From an uncultured Gammaproteobacteria bacterium (GTDB lineage Bacteria > Pseudomonadota > Gammaproteobacteria > Arenicellales > JAANXG01), in the NCBI GenBank assembly GCA_947259395.1, contig CAMYMN010000022.1:1-32494 (forward strand): 32,494 nt of DNA, read 5' to 3'. Within the stretch, counting starts at the first letter, position 1. Every line of letters starts with the position of its first letter. The translations under genes and the position numbers were made by a program. Below the pieces are notes generated by a model. The model ran no database searches. It was not told the origin of the DNA and was given only the letters and a program-made list of their open reading frames with translations. Shown piece after piece: positions 17,810 through 27,316 of the stretch.

Positions 17810-19621
17810 ATGGGAGTACCTCAACTAACGGCGGTGCTACGCCGTACGGAAGATATAGCTTCCGTTATTGTGTTGACGGTCATGTCGTTGTTGCCGCTTG
17901 CCGAGTTCAACGCCCGGGAGTTTGTGGGTGGCGGTATCCCGGGTTCTATCTCGCTGGTGCAGCATTTGACACTTTGGATTACGTTTCTCGGTGCGGCTCT
18001 GGCGGCGCGATCAGACCGCTTGCTGGCGTTGTCCACCGGCGAATTTCTTCCACCGCCCTGGCAGCGGCGTGCGCGGGTGCTAACTTCGATCCTTGGTGTT
18101 GGCGTAACCGGTTGTCTCTTGTTGGCAAGCATTCAACTGGTTGGGGTTGATTATAGATATGGAGACATAGTCTCGTGGGGGATACCAGTTTGGATATTTT
18201 CTATGATTATGCCCCTAGGTTTCTCCCTGATCGTCGCCCGTTTGATCTGGCACGCGGCGGCGGATTCGCGAGGCCGTATACTCGCCGCCCTCGGTTTGGT
18301 CTTCCCTTTGGCGCTAGGGTTTCTCGTCGATGCACCGGGTCCCGCGATGATGTGGGGTATTGGGTTAACGCTATTGCTTGGAATGGCACTGGGTATGCCC
18401 ATCTATGCGGTCATTGGTGGCGCGGCGTTGTTGTTGTTCTGGCAGGAAGGCACGCCGATTTCGGCGGTTCCAGGAGAGACCTATCGTTTGAGCACCGAGG
18501 CGATGTTGCCGGCCATTCCCCTGTTCACCGTCGCAGGTTACGTGTTGGCCGAGGGTGGGTCCAGTAAGCGGCTGTTGCGTTTATTCTCTGCACTGGTCGG
18601 CTGGATGCCGGGTGGTCTTGCAATCGTCACCACGCTGGTGTTGGCTTTCTTCACGCCGCTTACCGGAGCGTCGGGTATCACAATCCTGGCAATGGGCGGG
18701 TTATTGCTGCCGATGCTCGTCAGAGCACGCTACAAAGAACAGGAATCAATCGGACTGGTGACGGTTTCTGGATCCATCGGTGTTCTGTTACCACCCAGTC
18801 TACCTGTGATCCTATACGCCTATTATGCCGAACTCGATCTGGAACGGCTATTTGTTGGCGGATTGCTGCCGGGAATTCTACTCATTCTGGTAGTTGCCGG
18901 CTGGGGCGCTTGGTGTGGCTGGAGGGGTGACGCAACCCGAACACCATTTCGCCCCCGTGAGCTTTATATCGCATTGCGGGAAGCGAAGTGGGAAATCATG
19001 CTGCCGTTGGTGATTCTAATCGGCATCTTCGGCGGATTCGCGACGCTCGTGGAAGCTGCTGCGTTGACCGTGTTCTACGCGATTCTCATTGCCTGCGTCA
19101 TTCACCGCGAGGTCAGTTTCACCCGGGATCTCACCCGTGTGATGGTGGAGAGTGCGACGATGGTGGGCGGTTTCATGATCATCCTTGGTGTTGCTCTGGG
19201 TTTTACGAACTATCTTGTCATCGCCCAGATACCCATGCATGCCCTGGACTGGATCCAACAATACATTCAGTCGCCATATCTATTTTTATTAGTAGTCAAT
19301 GTCGTACTCATCATCGCCGGTGCTTTTATGGATATCTATTCGGCGATTATCGTTATCGTTCCGCTAATCGCTCCGATGGCGGCTGCTTATGCGGTGGATC
19401 CCGTGCACTTGGGAATTATCTTCCTGGCCAACTTACAGTTGGGATACCTCACGCCACCGGTGGGTGTTAATCTGTTTCTCTCCGCGTACCGTTTCAAGCA
19501 GCCGTTGGCGCGCATATATCGTTCCACGTTTCCGTACCTGATCCTTCTGCTGATGACAGCGTTGTTGATCACCTATGTGCCGGCACTCACCCTGTGGTTA
19601 CCGACTCTGCTATTGGATTAG
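17810..19621 (+). CDS. TRAP transporter fused small and large permease (DctQM)
   Basis: A 603-residue inner-membrane protein. Residues 1 to about 165 match the four-helix DctQ small subunit (LPLAEFNAREFVGGGIPGS in the first loop, then LWITFLGAALAARSDRLLAL). From about residue 185 the protein is a DctM large permease of 10-12 helices with FFTPLTGASGITILAMGGLLLPML, SGSIGVLLPPSLPVILYA, GAFMDIYSAIIVIVPLIAPM and NLQLGYLTPPVGVNLFLSAYRF, the hallmark ion-coupling and hairpin regions. The DctQ-DctM fusion is known in the TRAP family. Uptake is probably driven by Na+ or H+. There is no strong ribosome-binding site before the ATG. The gene ends 9 bp before the left end of the MITE-like element. Confidence 0.92.
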   Translation: MGVPQLTAVLRRTEDIASVIVLTVMSLLPLAEFNAREFVGGGIPGSISLVQHLTLWITFLGAALAARSDRLLALSTGEFLPPPWQRRARVLTSILGVGVTGCLLLASIQLVGVDYRYGDIVSWGIPVWIFSMIMPLGFSLIVARLIWHAAADSRGRILAALGLVFPLALGFLVDAPGPAMMWGIGLTLLLGMALGMPIYAVIGGAALLLFWQEGTPISAVPGETYRLSTEAMLPAIPLFTVAGYVLAEGGSSKRLLRLFSALVGWMPGGLAIVTTLVLAFFTPLTGASGITILAMGGLLLPMLVRARYKEQESIGLVTVSGSIGVLLPPSLPVILYAYYAELDLERLFVGGLLPGILLILVVAGWGAWCGWRGDATRTPFRPRELYIALREAKWEIMLPLVILIGIFGGFATLVEAAALTVFYAILIACVIHREVSFTRDLTRVMVESATMVGGFMIILGVALGFTNYLVIAQIPMHALDWIQQYIQSPYLFLLVVNVVLIIAGAFMDIYSAIIVIVPLIAPMAAAYAVDPVHLGIIFLANLQLGYLTPPVGVNLFLSAYRFKQPLARIYRSTFPYLILLLMTALLITYVPALTLWLPTLLLD

Positions 19622-19629
19622 GTAGAAAA

Positions 19630-19877
19630 ACTAGCCCGGATATTGCACCGAGGACCCCGGATGCTGCCGCAGAGATCGGGCGGCTGGACGTGGCGCTGGA
19701 ACGAAACCCATAGCGAGCTATGGGTTGAGTGAAGCGCAAGTCTAGGCGTTCGAGATCGAGCCGCGTTAGGCGTTTACCCGGGTACAAAGTGTCACCTACG
19801 CCGCCATACGAATTGCTGATGTCAATATAAGTCGATAGCGTATTATTTCGCCGCCTTGGTGCAATATTCGGGCTAGT
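19630..19877. mobile_element. MITE-like non-coding element with 24-bp terminal inverted repeats
   Basis: The left end (19630-19653, beginning ACTAGCCCG) and the right end (19854-19877, ending CGGGCTAGT) are reverse complements at 22 of 24 positions. Between them are about 200 bp without a credible gene. Both ends contain CTAG at the outside edge, which can be read either as part of the repeat or as a 4-bp target duplication of a CTAG-preferring transposase. The interior holds a strong stem-loop. It sits in the gap between the TRAP operon and the terminator of the oppositely oriented hydrogenase operon, a typical safe landing site. No transposase is present, so it would have to be mobilised in trans. 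The inverted repeats are seen directly; mobility is inferred. Confidence 0.75.
19693..19737 (+). repeat. Two-tier stem-loop inside the MITE-like element
   Basis: AACCCATAG (19705-19713) and CTATGGGTT (19718-19726) pair perfectly around CGAG. Outside a small internal loop GCGCT (19693-19697) pairs with AGCGC (19733-19737). The total is 14 bp of stem. Such a structure is typical of small dispersed elements and could fold in RNA or in single-stranded DNA. Confidence 0.6.
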
Positions 19878-19898
19878 GTCGATATCACAAGCCGCAGC

Positions 19899-19921
19899 AA
19901 AAAAACCGGTATCGCGACCGG
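19899..19921 (-). terminator. Rho-independent terminator of the hydrogenase operon
   Basis: Read on the minus strand, CCGGT and ACCGG form a 5-bp GC-rich stem around CGCGAT, directly followed by seven T. It lies about 25 bp after the cytochrome c stop codon, so it should end the hyb-hyp transcript. Confidence 0.75.
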
Positions 19922-19946
19922 CCGATCCGACTGCGATATTTGCGCG

Positions 19947-20372
19947 TTAGTCGCGAAGGGTCTTGAGAAAATCGATGAGTTCGGTACGTTGTCCCGCGTC
20001 CGCTATGCCGATCAGGGTCTTTTTAGTACCGGGAAGGAACTTGTCCGGGTCGGTCAAGTACTCGTCCAGATCTTTTTCACTCCACTTGCCTTCTGCTTTG
20101 GCGAGTGCCGTTGAATAACCATACCATTTGAATCTAGCTTTGTCGGCACCGACAATTCCCCACAGGGTGGGTGCGACACGAAGCGGTCCGTCTTTTTCCA
20201 GGCTGTGACACACGACACATCCGCTTGCGGGACCATCATGGCCCCGAGGTTGGGCGGCGTACCGGTATTGCCCCTCGGTGCGTACGCTACGCGACGGGGT
20301 GTCCGTTGAGCAACTCCATAACAGGCTCAACATCATGGGCAATGCTATAGCCATGCGTGTTTTCGTGTTCAT
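19947..20372 (-). CDS. Monoheme c-type cytochrome lipoprotein lacking the usual Met ligand
   Basis: A 141-residue class I-like cytochrome c. I start it at the ATG at 20372, with GGGAG 8 bases upstream; it opens a lipoprotein signal with lipobox LLWSC (Cys21). CVVCH at residues 52-56 binds one heme. Around it are class I features: PTLWGIVG (the usual PxLxGxxG) and YGYSTALAKAEGKWSEKDLDEYLTDPDKFLPGTKK, then IDFLKTLRD as last helix. In relatives PGTKM supplies the sixth heme ligand; here residue 118 is Lys (PGTKK), and no Met remains in the mature protein. It is anchored in a membrane facing the periplasm, where it could take electrons from or near the hydrogenase. It is the last gene of the hydrogenase operon. 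Confidence 0.88.
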   Translation of the reverse strand: MNTKTRMAIALPMMLSLLWSCSTDTPSRSVRTEGQYRYAAQPRGHDGPASGCVVCHSLEKDGPLRVAPTLWGIVGADKARFKWYGYSTALAKAEGKWSEKDLDEYLTDPDKFLPGTKKTLIGIADAGQRTELIDFLKTLRD

Positions 20373-20507
20373 GAATCTAACTCCCACACGTCCAAAATTT
20401 GTAACTGGCAATAAATCAATCTACGCATCGCCGGTGGGATGTGTGCACTGGCCGCGTCGGCTTCGGCCGCTGAATGACAATCGCCATTACCACTCCAGTA
20501 CGTACAG

Positions 20508-21965: not shown

Positions 21966-23162
21966 CTAGTGCTCCACGATGTTCAGCTCGTAGCCGACGC
22001 ATGGGTCCAAGGCGTTGATCAGCAACCCGGCGTTTTTGTCCAGTGTCTCACCCACATGGGCGTTGGCACCTTGCAAGCCCTGAATCAACGGACCGCGGGG
22101 ATGAAAATTCCATTCCGTGGGCGCCAGGATCCGGTAACGATCGACGATGTTGTCCGCGATTTCTACCCAATGCACCAACACTCCCCGCGCGGTGTCAATC
22201 ACACTGATGCCTTGGCCGCTGGCGTGATGGGCCGACGTGCCCGGATCATCGGACAGGTCGCCCACCCAGGACCGCATCTTGGAGATCAGGTCGTCGGTCT
22301 CAACGAGTCTTGCCCCCAGGCGGGTGAGCAGTCCGTTACCATGCCGGTCCCGCAATCTGCTGACCAGTGGATGGTCCACCAAGCGCGGCAACGCGCCGGT
22401 TTCAGAGATGCTGCCGTGGTAGTGTGGACGGGCGCAAAACGACCAATCCACATCGTTGGCTAACTGTTGCGCAAAGAAGCCGGTATCGGGTCGCGTCGGC
22501 AAAAAATCCACCTGGCTGTGGCCAAACGCTGCGAGTCCTTGGTCACGCACATAATCCAACGCCGCGGGCCCAGGTCGATGCTGCCGGCCGAGCCAACGAT
22601 CGAAGGACTCGTGGTTATCTAGTCGCGGTGCGGCGTCGCCGAAAACGATCCACGCCGCTTGTTGCGCGACCACATCGATGATCTTGACGAGCTCGACTGG
22701 ATCGGGCAGCAGATGACTACCGCCGATTCGGTTCCACGGCGTAGCGTTGAACATAGACGTCTCGAGGCCGCGGAGTAGCCGCCGCAGATCGCGTATCCCG
22801 GCCACATCGGGCCGCATGCCTAGGCAGGTCGGCCAATCCACAGCAATGCGCCAGACGGTCTGTTCCAGGGCCTCAGCAGCTACCAGCATCTGGCGCGCGG
22901 CGGTCTGCGGTGGAGTAAGTGAGATCGCTAGTGCGCGTTCCACCGCCATCAGGCCGGCGGTTGTTTGGGCGACACCACACAGGCTGAATATCCGCGGCAA
23001 CAGGTCCAAGGCGTCCTCGACCGGGCGGCCCTCCAGCAATGCGCCGCTGTCCACTGGGCGTCGCGAACAGACCTGGACATTGCTCACCACACCGGCATCG
23101 ATCTTGACCTCGATACGCAGGCTGCCCTCGATGCCGCCGCTCTTTCCTTGTGTGTCACGCAT
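21966..23162 (-). CDS. hupK: HupK-type hydrogenase maturation protein (degenerate large-subunit homologue)
   Basis: A 398-residue protein related to the large subunit of [NiFe] hydrogenases but not itself an enzyme. The N-terminal part holds FSLCGVAQTTAG, where the catalytic subunit has RxCGxC; one Cys is kept. The C-terminus reads LDPCVGYELNIVEH, corresponding to DPCxxCxxH with the second Cys lost. PTEWNFHPRGPL matches the PTTWN segment of large subunits. HupK/HoxV proteins are thought to serve as a scaffold for the Fe(CN)2CO unit. It begins immediately after the hybE stop. Its presence is typical of aerobic or oxygen-exposed uptake hydrogenases. Function is from family knowledge. Confidence 0.88.
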   Translation of the reverse strand: MRDTQGKSGGIEGSLRIEVKIDAGVVSNVQVCSRRPVDSGALLEGRPVEDALDLLPRIFSLCGVAQTTAGLMAVERALAISLTPPQTAARQMLVAAEALEQTVWRIAVDWPTCLGMRPDVAGIRDLRRLLRGLETSMFNATPWNRIGGSHLLPDPVELVKIIDVVAQQAAWIVFGDAAPRLDNHESFDRWLGRQHRPGPAALDYVRDQGLAAFGHSQVDFLPTRPDTGFFAQQLANDVDWSFCARPHYHGSISETGALPRLVDHPLVSRLRDRHGNGLLTRLGARLVETDDLISKMRSWVGDLSDDPGTSAHHASGQGISVIDTARGVLVHWVEIADNIVDRYRILAPTEWNFHPRGPLIQGLQGANAHVGETLDKNAGLLINALDPCVGYELNIVEH

Positions 23163-23663
23163 TTAGCCGTTCACTTGGCCCCGCAAAAAAGCACGTCGAC
23201 TGCCATTCGCCGGAGCCTGTTGCTGCGTAACATCCTCGGTTACTGCCGCGGGCGGCGTCAGCAACGAGTTTAGACGCCGTTTAGCCTCCACCCTTGCAAG
23301 TTCCTGTGTGTTGAAGGCGAACATTGGCGAGTGTAATGACAAGCTTTTGTACAGTCCCATCACGTCATCGCCACCAAACATGAACTGCCATGTCCCGGCG
23401 GGTAGAGTTTCATCGGTGGGCGATGCGACTAACGTATAGTCCATCGTCGCTTTGTCTTGCGGCAGCAGGATAACGTTCATGAACCACGGGGTGATCAGAA
23501 CGCCAAGATAATTGTCGCCATAGGAGTGAAATCCGATTGCCTCCACCTTGAGGTTTTCATTGTAAACAGGCAGGTCCCGCATATTGAGTTCACCGATTTT
23601 GTCAAAACGCTCAACCATCTCAGCCACGCGAGGAGCTAGGTTTGATTGTTCTTGGTCGGTCAT
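23163..23663 (-). CDS. hybE: HybE/HupJ-family hydrogenase assembly chaperone
   Basis: A 166-residue cytoplasmic protein of the HybE family, which binds hydrogenase precursors and helps prevent early export. The landmark is YGDNYLGVLITPWFMNVILLP, then LPAGTWQF and MFAFNTQELARVEAKRRL. I prefer the ATG at 23663, one base after the hypC stop and 9 bases after GAGG, over one five codons upstream. The last residues are SRRAFLRG near the C-terminus (23181-23201 encodes SRRAFLR), a perfect-looking twin-arginine consensus in an unusual place. The gene lies between hypC and hupK with no gaps. Role in large- or small-subunit quality control is inferred from the family. Confidence 0.9.
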   Translation of the reverse strand: MTDQEQSNLAPRVAEMVERFDKIGELNMRDLPVYNENLKVEAIGFHSYGDNYLGVLITPWFMNVILLPQDKATMDYTLVASPTDETLPAGTWQFMFGGDDVMGLYKSLSLHSPMFAFNTQELARVEAKRRLNSLLTPPAAVTEDVTQQQAPANGSRRAFLRGQVNG

Positions 23664-23664
23664 A

Positions 23665-23928
23665 TCAGGGTGCCTCATGGTTTGATTTGAACTCGATATC
23701 GTCAGCTAGTCGTTCGGCGAGCTCGTTGAAAAGCAACAACGCCTCCCGTGCTGCCTGCGGATCCATTTTAGCGACTACATGGGTGCGGGCCCGCAGTACC
23801 ACATAGTCTCCCACCGTCAAGGGTTCGGACATCAACCCGGTATTCACCTCGAGGCGTTCCCCGTAACGCTCGACGATCACTCGATCGTCGTTAATTTCCA
23901 CGACTTTGGATGGAATCGCCAGGCACAT
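23665..23928 (-). CDS. hypC: Hydrogenase maturation chaperone HypC
   Basis: An 87-residue protein starting MCLAIPSKVV. Cys2, exposed after Met removal, binds the iron during Fe(CN)2CO assembly with HypD and then escorts the large-subunit precursor. The beta-barrel part VGDYVVLRARTHVVAKMD and the helical end AREALLLFNELAERL fit the family. It starts 3 bp after hybD. HypD, its partner, is not within the window. Confidence 0.96.
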   Translation of the reverse strand: MCLAIPSKVVEINDDRVIVERYGERLEVNTGLMSEPLTVGDYVVLRARTHVVAKMDPQAAREALLLFNELAERLADDIEFKSNHEAP

Positions 23929-23931
23929 GGC

Positions 23932-24432
23932 TCAAGCGACCTCCGTGGCTGTTAATGATTGTTGTCCGGCATCGATCCCTACCGCGGCCAACTGTTTTAT
24001 GATTATGGTCAGCGCGTGATCAACGGCGCCGGCGGCGGTGGGAGAAAGTTCGGTTCCTAAGCTCAGGTCTGCGGGTACGACGCCAACGATGCTGACCAGC
24101 GGGGGAAGTTCGTCCAACAGCTTCAACGTAGCGAGCACGTCGGATAATCCCACTTGATGGGGCGAGAGCTTGGTTTGAAAAAACGCAGGTACGTCATCAC
24201 CGTTGATTTGAATGACGGTCCCGGGCGACGCGTCGGATTTGATTGCGTCGCACACAATCAGAACGTCGCGACCGGAGATGGTGTACAACAGATCCATGCC
24301 CGAGGTTCCGCCGTCGAGGACCTCGACATCCGCTGGCAGGGTATAGCGCTTGGCCAATGACTCGATGACGCGAACGCCGACGCCCTCATCACGAAGCAAG
24401 ATGTTTCCGATGCCCAGCACCAACACGTTCAT
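23932..24432 (-). CDS. hybD: HybD-type hydrogenase maturation endopeptidase
   Basis: A 166-residue protease that removes the C-terminal peptide of the large subunit after nickel insertion. The ATG at 24432 gives the family start MNVLVLGIGNILLRDEGVGV. The nickel-sensing ligands are Glu16 in RDEGVG, the Asp in LDGGTSG near residue 62, and the His in LSPHQVGL near residue 93. Its gene follows its substrate hybC by 19 bp. A longer frame upstream overlaps hybC and lacks any family feature, so I reject it. Confidence 0.95.
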   Translation of the reverse strand: MNVLVLGIGNILLRDEGVGVRVIESLAKRYTLPADVEVLDGGTSGMDLLYTISGRDVLIVCDAIKSDASPGTVIQINGDDVPAFFQTKLSPHQVGLSDVLATLKLLDELPPLVSIVGVVPADLSLGTELSPTAAGAVDHALTIIIKQLAAVGIDAGQQSLTATEVA

Positions 24433-24451
24433 GCGCTTGCCCCCGCCTCGG

Positions 24452-26158
24452 TTACGCTGCCTTGACACGAACAATTGGCCGGTTCTTGGTGTCAACCATA
24501 TGTATGGCGCAAGCCAGGCACGGATCGAATGAGTGCACGGTGCGCAACACCTCCAAGGGCAACTCGGCGTCGGCCACCGGGTTGTCCAGCAGGGACGCCT
24601 CATAGGGTCCCAACTGTTCGTTGTCGTCCCGTGGTCCGGCATTCCATGTGGTGGGCACTACCGCCTGGTAATTGGCAATCTTGCCGTTGTTGATTACCGT
24701 CCAGTGCGAGAGGGTGCCCCGTGGCGCTTCGTGAAAACCAAATCCACGTACTTCGCCCTTGGGAAACACCGGTCGGTTGAAGGTATCGAAGTCCCCTTTG
24801 GTAATATTGTCCATCAACAGTTGCCATTGATTTTGCAGTGACTCGTACAACACTGCAGCGCGCACCGCCCTCGCCGCCACGCGGCCGAGCGTTGAATGCA
24901 CCGCAGCGAGTGGAATCTCCGAACCCGCGACGGTGCTCGCGATCGACAATAAACGGGTGAGATGGCGTTTTGTGGGTTCGTGGCCGGCGGCGTACATCGC
25001 GAGCACATTGGCAAGCGGCCCGACCTGGGCTCGCTGGTCGTAAAATGTCGGCGCCTTGACCCAGGAATATTTGCCGTCGTCTTGGAAGTCGGTGTATTTG
25101 GGATTGGTTTGACCGTCATAGGGATGCAGCGCGCGGTCGCCGCCCTGATATTCATACCAGGCGTGCTTGACACTCTCTTTGACGCCGTCGCGAAAGTATT
25201 GGTCCTGGTATCCGGCGATCTCCTTGAACTTCGCGACGTCGCCATCCTCGATATAGCCGCCAGGCAGTTCAAACTGGGTACCCTTGGTGTCGAGCGGCAT
25301 ATCCGGCACCGAGAGATAATTGGTGACACCGGCGCCGTACTGCGCCCACTCTGCGTACAGCGCGCCGACCGCGCCGACATCGGGTATCAACGCCTCGTTC
25401 ACGAACTCGCCGAGCTTGTCGATCTCCGCCTTAATCGCAAACAAGCGCTCTAAGGTGAGCGTGGACTGGCTGTTGGGATTGATCGGATTGGCAACGCCAC
25501 CCACCGCTAGATTCTGAATATGCGGTGTCTTGGAACCGAGAATGGTCACGATCTTGTTCGCCGCCCGCTGATACTCCAGGGCCTGCAGATAGTGCGCCGC
25601 GGCCAACAAATTGACCTCCGGCGGCAAGCGCATCGCCGGGTGGCCCCAATAACCGCTCGCGAACACCCCCAGCTGGCCGCTATTTACGAATGCCGTCAGC
25701 TTCTCCTGGACCTTGCGAATCTCCGGCACGCCGTTGTGTGGATAATCCGACAAACTCGCGCCGAGCTTGGCAGTTGCTACCGGATCCGCCTTGAGCGCGG
25801 AGACGATGTCCACCCAGTCCAGACCAGTGAGGTGATAGAAATGCACGATGTGGTCGTGAACGCCATGGGCAGCCATGATCATGTTGCGGATGTACTGCGC
25901 ATTCAACGGGACCCCGAGGTCGAGGGCGTTCTCCACCGCACGTACCGAGGTGATGGCGTGCACCGTGGTACACACCCCGCAGATGCGTTGCGTAAAGATC
26001 CACGCATCGCGCGGGTCGCGGCCCTGCAGGATGAGCTCTATGCCTCGCCACATCTGGCCCGATGCCCAGGCATTGGTGACCTTGCCATTTTCGACTTCAC
26101 AGTCGATTCGTAAGTGACCCTCGATACGGGTGATGGGATCTATGGTAATACGCGTCAC
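24452..26158 (-). CDS. hybC: [NiFe]-hydrogenase large subunit HybC
   Basis: The 568-residue catalytic subunit of a membrane-bound uptake hydrogenase, carrying the NiFe(CN)2CO centre in the periplasm. L1 motif RICGVC with Cys60, Cys63 and His67 and L2 motif DPCLACAIH with Cys547, Cys550 and His553 supply the four metal-binding Cys. HybD should cut after His553, releasing a 15-residue tail. The start MTRITIDPITRIEGHLRI is the family N-terminus; GTG at 26158 is preceded by GGGAGG. It has no signal peptide and is exported with HybO. The match is to the group 1 H2-uptake type that uses HybA and HybB as electron partners. Confidence 0.97.
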   Translation of the reverse strand: MTRITIDPITRIEGHLRIDCEVENGKVTNAWASGQMWRGIELILQGRDPRDAWIFTQRICGVCTTVHAITSVRAVENALDLGVPLNAQYIRNMIMAAHGVHDHIVHFYHLTGLDWVDIVSALKADPVATAKLGASLSDYPHNGVPEIRKVQEKLTAFVNSGQLGVFASGYWGHPAMRLPPEVNLLAAAHYLQALEYQRAANKIVTILGSKTPHIQNLAVGGVANPINPNSQSTLTLERLFAIKAEIDKLGEFVNEALIPDVGAVGALYAEWAQYGAGVTNYLSVPDMPLDTKGTQFELPGGYIEDGDVAKFKEIAGYQDQYFRDGVKESVKHAWYEYQGGDRALHPYDGQTNPKYTDFQDDGKYSWVKAPTFYDQRAQVGPLANVLAMYAAGHEPTKRHLTRLLSIASTVAGSEIPLAAVHSTLGRVAARAVRAAVLYESLQNQWQLLMDNITKGDFDTFNRPVFPKGEVRGFGFHEAPRGTLSHWTVINNGKIANYQAVVPTTWNAGPRDDNEQLGPYEASLLDNPVADAELPLEVLRTVHSFDPCLACAIHMVDTKNRPIVRVKAA

Positions 26159-26173
26159 GGTTGCCTCCCTTGA

Positions 26174-27316
26174 TTAGGCGGGCCGGGTGCCATGCAACAC
26201 CGGAAGTTTTTTCACAAAGACCAGGTAAAGCATGATCTCGAGGGCGATCACACCGATTGTGACCATGAGTTCCGGCGCCGACGGAAAATAGCTCCACCCG
26301 TTGCCGGGAGCGTACGCCACCAGAAAGGCGTTGATGCGGTACAGTGACCCAGCACCCAACAGCAGCAGCGCGGCGAGAAACATCTGGCGCTGGTCGATGC
26401 GCCGCACCGGAGAGATCAATATGACCGTCGGTATCACAAACATGAGAATCTCTATCCAGAACATGAGTGCGTTCATATCTGCGGCAAACATCGGTGCGAC
26501 CTGTCCGCGTGCCAGCAGGTCTAGGAATCGTAACACTAGGAATGCGGCTAGCAGCCAGCCGACAATCGGTGACAGCTTTCTCAAAATACGTTGCTCGGAG
26601 GACAGCTTGAAGGCGTTGGTGACCAACGTCGATTCCAGGATGACGATGCCGTAACCCATGGCGATGGCGGTGAGCAGAAACCACAGCGGCAGCCATACGG
26701 TGTACCACAGCGGCGACAACTGCGACCCCATTACTAGCAACAGCGAGCCCAGCGAGGACTGATGCAAAGTCGGCAACAAGACACCCAGTGCAATGATGAT
26801 GTACAAGAAGCGTTTCAGTTTTCGTTTGGCGTTGGTGAGACCGAAACGTTCGAGAAACGCGGGTGAGAATTCGATCCACAGCACCAATATGTAGGCCATG
26901 ACGCACAATGCCACTTCGAACATCACCGAGCTGGGTTGTGCATACCAGGGCAACAACAGGTTGTAAAAATTCCAATAACGCCCAAGATCGAATATCACCG
27001 CCATGCCGCCCAGGGTGTAACCGAACAACCCACCGAGCAGGGCGGGGCGCATCAACGGATGGTATTCGCCCTTGTTGAAGATGTAGACCAGCAGCGCCAT
27101 GGCGAATCCGCCACAGCCAAACGCGGTGCCGATTATCACGTCGACGACCACCCAAATTCCCCAGGGATAGCCGCCGTTGAGATGGGTCACCGAACCCAGA
27201 CCGAATATGAAACGGGTGACGAGAAAGTACACCGCTATAGCGAACAACAGCCCTAAAAACAGGAATGGTTTGGTCAGCAACTCACCGCCGAGGGGTTGAT
27301 GCGTGTCTTGTGCCAT
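26174..27316 (-). CDS. hybB: HybB, NrfD-family membrane subunit of hydrogenase
   Basis: A 380-residue integral inner-membrane protein with about ten transmembrane helices, family NrfD/PsrC. It starts MAQDTHQPLGGELLTKPFLFLG and contains GGYPWGIWVVVDVIIGTAFGC-type first loops (shown here in part) that are typical of HybB. NrfD proteins lack cofactors and pass electrons between an iron-sulfur subunit and quinone. Here it would connect HybA to the quinone pool. It lies 5 bp after hybA and 15 bp before hybC. No cytochrome b subunit gene (hupC type) is present, in agreement with a HybB-based system. Confidence 0.95.
   Translation of the reverse strand: MAQDTHQPLGGELLTKPFLFLGLLFAIAVYFLVTRFIFGLGSVTHLNGGYPWGIWVVVDVIIGTAFGCGGFAMALLVYIFNKGEYHPLMRPALLGGLFGYTLGGMAVIFDLGRYWNFYNLLLPWYAQPSSVMFEVALCVMAYILVLWIEFSPAFLERFGLTNAKRKLKRFLYIIIALGVLLPTLHQSSLGSLLLVMGSQLSPLWYTVWLPLWFLLTAIAMGYGIVILESTLVTNAFKLSSEQRILRKLSPIVGWLLAAFLVLRFLDLLARGQVAPMFAADMNALMFWIEILMFVIPTVILISPVRRIDQRQMFLAALLLLGAGSLYRINAFLVAYAPGNGWSYFPSAPELMVTIGVIALEIMLYLVFVKKLPVLHGTRPA

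Follow-up and report, generated by a model that had tools for sequence, protein, structure and literature searches.

A many-copy miniature element of Gammaproteobacteria with IS1380-type ends and a hairpin core kept by compensatory changes

We describe a 238-bp element in a 32,494-nt stretch of DNA from an uncultured gammaproteobacterium (hereafter, the window), which is very probably a non-autonomous type II miniature inverted-repeat transposable element (MITE) moved in trans by DDE transposases of the IS1380 family, with only its ends in common with its partner. Copies of the element contain an interior hairpin that has been kept by compensatory changes and that is common to both end types of these elements and to other families of the class. 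Elements of the MITE kind are known; we found no description of IS1380 as the partner of one, and the core is unusual in its conservation. The common view of bacterial MITEs is that they are insertion sequences (IS) in decay, with inconsequential interiors.

The outer arms of the element (19630-19653 and 19854-19877) are 24 nt each, are complementary at 22 of 24 positions (92%), and form the sole inverted repeat listed in 19500-20000 by a search with a seed of 9 and a minimum of 12. The sequence-only reading had proposed a 248-bp element with 24-bp ends and CTAG edges. CTAG is indeed present at both edges (19631-19634 and 19873-19876), but it is the target, and the outermost A/T pair of the arms is flanking DNA; the element proper spans 19635-19872 (238 bp), with end repeats of 19 bp that are complementary at 17 of 19 positions. 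From left to right, the locus consists of the left copy of the duplicated CTAG (19631..19634), assigned from the sequence, the empty site in two relatives (G005 and G002) and a direct-repeat tally; the left terminal inverted repeat CCCGGATATTGCACCGAGG (19635..19653, + strand), found by the inverted-repeat search, with its first 15 bases resembling the IS1380 ends of loci L129, L229 and L255; module A (19635..19764, + strand), i.e., the end repeat plus the conserved hairpin; module B (19765..19853), a variable interior recognized by copy comparison, where other copies have unrelated sequence; the right terminal inverted repeat (19854..19872, − strand), which comes from the same search and is CCCGAATATTGCACCAAGG read inwards; and the right copy of CTAG (19873..19876), assigned on the same grounds as the left. 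Module A was matched over its full length by covariance model R1 (E-value of 1.2e-29), although this match holds by construction, as the window row is among the 21 sequences used to build R1. Its imperfect hairpin (19665..19763, + strand), defined by covariation in an alignment of 21 copies (A2), has the apical stem CCCATAGC/GCTATGGG, and its unpaired bases at 19699, 19727-19728, 19731-19732, 19738-19739, 19754 and 19759 are invariant in the 21 copies.

The element folded to −117.3 kcal/mol on the (+) strand (shuffle mean −84.3; z = −6.58; 0 of 200 shuffles equally low) and to −102 on the opposite strand (shuffles −77; z = −5.43). Just one ORF of ≥60 aa reaches into it (19587-19787, minus strand, 66 aa), which we did not take for a gene. 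The repeat search, the folds and the ORF list thus agree with the earlier description of inverted ends matching at 22 of 24 positions, CTAG edges, a stem-loop interior and no credible gene. The element lies between two converging genes, a dctQ-dctM fusion gene (17810-19621, + strand) encoding a TRAP transporter (DctQ-DctM) and an ORF on the (−) strand (19947-20411), which has no Pfam match and resembles cytochrome c weakly (42 bits; cut-off, 240). A search of Rfam returned nothing inside the element and a single sub-threshold match outside it (E-value of 2.7). Farther along the window (21966-27316, minus strand), [NiFe]-hydrogenase genes (two large-subunit matches, HybE and an NrfD-like gene) adjoin a TRAP transporter operon. 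By eye, a box reading ACAAAGTGTCAC or ACAAAGTGTACC recurs in module B across families, e.g., in the window (19765-19853) and in L324 (1805-2048).

The element is present in many copies, as had been anticipated. Specifically, the end pattern with ≤2 mismatches matched the draft source genome (G000) 165 times (81 forward and 84 reverse), vs 0 matches for the reversed-pattern control, and a BLAST search of the element against the same genome gave at least 71 match pieces at E-values up to 1 among the best 40 of 128 first-look candidates scored. With one mismatch, the pattern occurred in 21 of the 100 genomes of the relatives search (own genome counted), with three or more ends in 14 genomes and a single end in 7; the latter may be due to chance, because the reversed pattern also gave single matches in 3 genomes. 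Ends were found in all six genomes of the genus, including 186 in G002 and 181 in G005 (one mismatch), and 107 ends were found in G221, a complete genome in a single contig. One exact 19-base form of the end occurred in at least 112 stretches of named genomes, and the 80 matches listed for it were all from Gammaproteobacteria or Proteobacteria. They include Halomonas lysinitropha, the cultured Luminiphilus syltensis NOR5-1B, with at least one end, and MAGs of Halieaceae, Arenicellales and Thiohalobacter. In a class-wide sample, the exact end was found in 7 of 229 genomes (own one counted), and plasmid records had no match to the element. Several contigs of related genomes (L071, L073, L074, L077, L078, L080 and L081) end ~80 bp inside a copy starting with CACCAGTCGGCCACCGGCC, a sign of near-identical copies; the family thus fragments draft genomes.

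Two genomes of the same genus align through the window site without the element when the window flanks, joined at one CTAG, are used as the query. The G005 allele is identical at 602 of 657 positions (92%), has a single CTAG and reads AAAAACTAGTGTC, while the G002 allele is identical at 573 of 657 positions (87%), has CTGG at the site and reads AAAAACTGGTGCC; each alignment contains one gap, ~20 bases off the junction. Therefore, the element is most simply an insertion on the lineage of the window. For L086, a second copy that lies in G002, locus L174 of a relative provides a clean empty site (140 of 153 positions identical). This pair came from a scan of 93 copies that returned 15 junction-crossing rows, five of which were read: one clean (L086/L174), one with a 6-base gap nearby (L029/L220) and three unusable. 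Empty-site alleles, which had been named as a check on the sequence-only reading, were therefore found for both the window copy and L086. In the same intergenic gap (window 19600-19640; L248 and L249), different members of the family are seen in three genomes of the genus: besides the window copy, those of G004 and G001 lie at the dctM stop codon. The G001 member is of a second type, with TCTCACC ends, and the right end of the G004 member was not recognized.

We tallied the edges of 190 copies in 175 flank clusters. CTAG was found at 115 left and 109 right edges; 85 clusters had equal palindromic edges, 58 had CTAG on one side only and 23 had other combinations, and the edges were unequal in 81 of the 175. 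Among non-palindromic pairs, nine were direct-equal (TTAG in five, CTAA in four) and none was inverted-equal; therefore, CTAG is a 4-bp target duplication, in line with the CTAG/YTAR duplication suggested earlier. No duplication stood out beyond these 4 bp in 93 copies. The best reading is that the target is a duplicated 4-bp YTAR site with a strong preference for CTAG, often mutated later. These data demonstrate past mobility and target duplication of the family: the element is short, lacks a transposase gene, has terminal inverted repeats, is multi-copy, and has a target-site duplication and empty-site alleles, as expected of a MITE.

Full-length IS with the same kind of ends, also looked for as a check, were found in L129, L229 and L255. 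L129, from Halomonas lysinitropha, is a 1,564-bp element (TAG to TAG) that was found from its ends alone; its transposase is broken, and the pieces match PF13701. Among seven IS1380-type loci examined, such ends were recognized in three (L229, L230 and L231) and were lacking in four (L232, L234, L235 and L238); L257 and L260, two further loci of this type, showed none either, so these ends are not general among IS1380-type loci. L229, from the same-genus genome G001, contains an intact 437-aa ORF between the ends CCCGGATATTGCACG and CCTGGATATTGCACG, and both G001 and G004, another genome of the genus, have an IS1380-type transposase with such ends. L255, which came from a class-wide protein search (11 of 274 genomes matching at E-values up to 1e-20), has an intact ORF 72% identical to that of L229 and CCCGCATATTGCAYC ends. 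The ATATTGCAC end type is thus represented by L129 (broken), L229 and L255 (intact ORFs) in three genera, and the TCTCACC end type by L230, L231 and L256, whose transposases are 45-48% identical to that of L229; L266, a further transposase branch, has CCCGGATTATTCATGAA. In a tree of seven rows (one partial), the two end types fall in two transposase clades, with support of 81/82 for the first and full support (100/100) for the second (TCTCACC), and both end types also occur on miniatures. L229, L230 and L231 score 403-409 bits for the NCBIfam IS1380 model (NF033539; cut-off, 180). The edges of the IS themselves are equal in L129 and L230 and unequal in L229, L231 and L255. The sequence-only reading had offered IS701 as an example of a family with such targets; the transposase genes found between these ends are of the IS1380 family instead, mostly found via an IS1380 protein search.

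A PF13701 search of 12 genus and family genomes gave matches above the cut-off in four. The source genome (86.6% complete) had only a sub-threshold match, which leaves absence of the gene uncertain, and seven of the 11 other genomes, including G002 and G005 (none), had no match above the cut-off. Likewise, five of six further carrier genomes had no PF13701 match, and the sixth, G221, had sub-threshold matches only. Where the partner is absent, it is likely that an IS arrives, moves the miniatures and is then lost; undetected transposases in draft genomes are possible. Fifteen long end pairs (700-3,500 bp) occur in the loci examined, those in L129, L229, L230, L231, L255 and L262/L270 holding IS1380-type genes or pieces and that in L264 a fragment. 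The pairs in L068, L069, L070, L184 and L322 were rejected as autonomous elements, having no transposase by eye in the ORFs between their ends. In L322 (1726-3390, from G221), a 1,665-bp segment with CTAG and these ends on both sides holds a 184-aa ORF without an NCBIfam match, which we take to be YaeQ-like; the segment is possibly a gene captured between two ends.

Other explanations of these observations can be weighed against movement by an IS1380 transposase. An ordinary bidirectional terminator, or a fixed hairpin between converging genes, would have a strong fold and converging ORFs on both sides, as seen here, and a pattern scan gave 3 terminator-like sites in 19500-20000 vs 0.5 in shuffles, one of them (19652-19635, minus strand, five pairs) made by the left end. 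However, G005 and G002 retain both flanks without the element, which refutes this as its origin, the element is multi-copy, and the terminator-like stem of seven pairs that has a T run (19923-19904, minus strand) lies outside it, its sequence being largely kept in the G005 empty allele, making this explanation highly improbable. We give just as little credence to the idea that the edges belong to the inverted repeat (CTAGCC...), with no target duplication: the excess of direct-equal over inverted-equal non-palindromic edges (nine vs none) and the one CTAG of the G005 empty allele both argue against it, even though palindromic CTAG leaves most copies uninformative and ends starting with CCTAG are known for other IS1380 members. 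It is also unlikely, if less extremely so, that another transposase family with similar ends (e.g., an IS701-like or unrecognized one) moves the element. IS701 uses a similar target, several genomes rich in copies gave no above-cut-off match to an IS1380 transposase, and the sample of partners is biased, given that only L129 was found via its ends and the others via IS1380-directed protein searches. Yet L129 did come from ends alone, the end search had turned up the left end of L229 ahead of the protein search, the transposases that accompany the ATATTGCAC type in L129, L229 and L255, from three genera, are related, and the two end types track two transposase clades. Moreover, the element has CC..GG termini and a 4-bp duplication, which is how IS1380 is described in the accessible part of PMC10045372.

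The interior of the element proved to be conserved in structure. Module A, ~130 bp from one end, was aligned over 21 chosen copies (A2), four of them with TCTCACC ends, and RNAalifold predicted 32 pairs, 13 of which are changed on both sides. In A2, 94.2% of pairing cells were filled by pairs; shuffles gave 85.8%, and slid controls did not exceed 37.2%. The covariation score was 0.280, compared with 0.133 in shuffles, with 0 of 500 shuffles reaching it. With E-values of 0.001 or lower, the R1 model had at least 65-146 matches per genome in eight genomes of the family (at least 88 in G000), in a scan that scored the best 150 candidates at most per genome and gave rough E-values; the same scan of G249 gave 0 matches, despite an IS1380 with the same ends. 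Module A was found in 104 of 128 copies, among them 12 of 15 TCTCACC-type miniatures; this proportion is not a family frequency, since resemblance to module A was what brought many of the loci into the sample. Elements from other families (in G221, G309, G166, G189 and G245) have different stem sequences. In a 21-row alignment that combined 10 copies of the kind first aligned with seven G221 copies and four others, the consensus had 14 apical pairs, 10 of them changed on both sides, and a covariation score of 0.539 vs 0.193 in shuffles, again reached by 0 of 500; further pair types were no higher than in shuffles in this several-family alignment (17 vs 18.0), and the outer stem was not recovered in it. 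The hairpin is thus real in the sense of covariation; any function of it is presumptive, and its conservation is most likely due to the folded module A strand mattering to the element.

Compensatory changes could also arise in a hairpin without function, if arm-to-arm template switching in replication mended the mismatches of a quasi-palindrome. We consider this less likely than not, but a serious alternative. Consistent with it, stem sequences differ blockwise between lineages, copies contain complementary short inserts at two places in the core, and in single folds L324, L313 and L310 were about equally stable on both strands, while L312, L308 and L064 folded better on the module strand (five of the six form one long hairpin; that of L313 is shorter). 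The ratio of G-U to A-C pairs, counted over all pairs, was also alike on the two strands (50:13 on the module strand and 51:19 on the other). On the other hand, mismatched internal loops persist, and 9 of the 33 invariant A2 columns beyond column 30 are unpaired (24 are paired). The A2 consensus energy favors the module strand (−41.5 vs −26.1), as do the wobble counts when mostly-wobble pairs are excluded (33:13 vs 13:19), the latter weakly, since the rows are related and the structures were fitted per strand. A strand-specific role of the hairpin is therefore possible. More tentatively still, selection may act on the hairpin core as its unit. The core would be a structured module that persisted while its transposases changed, having been combined with two or more IS1380 end types, and would act, in RNA form or as a single strand that folds, either by bringing the ends together or on the transcripts of the genes at whose stop codons it lies. 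If so, the element would not be a decayed IS but a structured parasite of long standing, borrowing whichever transposases come past. With an interior model that matches eight genomes and a core found on two sets of ends, the role of a MITE core becomes directly testable.

In 33 of 96 copies, the edge of the element doubles as the stop codon for an ORF of ≥100 aa, where ORFs are open frames rather than gene annotations. Counted by cluster, this was so in 42 of 119 in the first set, 22 of 56 in a new set and 64 of 175 pooled. The new set was collected after a plan naming six genomes; its 80 regions also took in a single one each from G000 and G004, and 62 new copies passed, giving the 56 new clusters. 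As controls, we used non-coding sites without repeats, excluding those <400 bp from an end, <330 bp from a locus end or inside ORFs of ≥100 aa. In the larger control (loci of ≥1,400 bases), a stop codon was present at 25 of 142 CTAG sites (pooled p = 0.0002; new set, 0.0026) and 121 of 816 YTAR sites (pooled, 4e-10; new set, 2e-5); in the smaller one (loci up to L228), at 19 of 90 CTAG sites (pooled, 0.012; new set, 0.023) and 91 of 593 YTAR sites (pooled, 6e-9; new set, 5e-5). A first non-coding control (106 of 749 YTAR and 25 of 129 CTAG sites) was dropped because overlapping loci had been counted repeatedly. Insertions are thus in excess at stop codons. Tolerance is the presumed cause, and no targeting need be invoked, since purifying selection on insertions elsewhere can account for the excess. 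Module A was antisense rather than sense to the stop-codon gene in 28:6 cases in the first set (p = 2e-4) and 15:9 in the new set (p = 0.31; pooled, 43:15), so that an orientation bias, not replicated by the new set alone, is unproven. For genes facing the element with their 3′ end, the corresponding counts were 51 and 38 (p = 0.20), and ORFs in the same direction on both sides gave counts of 25 antisense and 11 sense. Where module-A clusters had ORFs of ≥150 aa on both sides (62 clusters), 18 pairs converge, 36 run in the same direction and 8 diverge; the suggestion of safe placement between converging transcripts therefore suits the window copy but is not a rule of the family.

We infer that an IS1380 transposase acts on the element, by cut and paste. 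In this mechanism, the transposase would recognize the ends CCYGNATATTGCACC, and that of the sister clade CCYGNATTTCTCACC; it would excise the element and insert it at a 4-bp YTAR site, mostly CTAG, duplicating the site. As YTAR holds TAG or TAA, an insertion at the last codon would leave the stop codon intact, and such insertions would be tolerated and hence accumulate; a target containing TAG or TAA would offer a simple way of entering the ends of genes while leaving them unbroken. The folded module A strand may matter to the element by bringing both ends together or by acting as RNA.

Like the element, IS1380-family IS (PF13701, NF033539) of the genus and elsewhere have matching ends and targets, but the element is without a transposase gene and only the ends are seen in common. 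In the accessible part of PMC10045372, IS1380 has CC..GG termini and a 4-bp duplication and is a distant relative of piggyBac, which likewise has both; the part of PMC3281130 at hand adds that some members, such as IS1247, make a 5-bp duplication. The available text on eukaryotic piggyBac (PMC10813416) describes a 4-bp palindromic target as well, but this is TTAA, whereas our family prefers CTAG. Type II bacterial MITEs, as far as the available text of the review PMC10969869 describes them, are small and multi-copy, with inverted ends, target duplication and IS similarity limited to the ends, as here; the contrast is an interior structure conserved across end types and genera. The name IS1380 has 0 occurrences in that review. 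According to the portions at hand, MITEPye1 (PMC11578231) also has ends in common with an IS and a predicted long stem, but is tied to IS1182, has 1-3 chromosomal copies and comes with no test for covariation in the portions at hand, and the Tn3-derived TIMEs (PMC4133298) are likewise miniature, with predicted folded transcripts and mobilization in trans, but have Tn3 ends, 5-6-bp duplications and usually 1 copy per genome. We found no MITE tied to IS1380 in the accessible parts of the open-licence literature, including PMC4133298, PMC3542288, PMC10813416, PMC10969869, PMC11578231, PMC9330008, PMC10045372 and PMC3281130.

Finally, units of 22-24 bp (CTTGTGCTGCGCGTAGTCGCAGT and relatives starting with CTTGT) are seen at recurrent places of the core in many copies, e.g., L011 (1372-1708), L012 (1418-1710), L017 (1349-1729), L019 (1216-1645), L030 (1320-1652) and others, sometimes as complementary pairs and with some nested within others. 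In this they are reminiscent of the small dispersed repeats known from cyanobacteria. Six query units, with overlapping matches, occurred 90 times inside elements and 32 times outside paired ends, several of the latter beside single ends.
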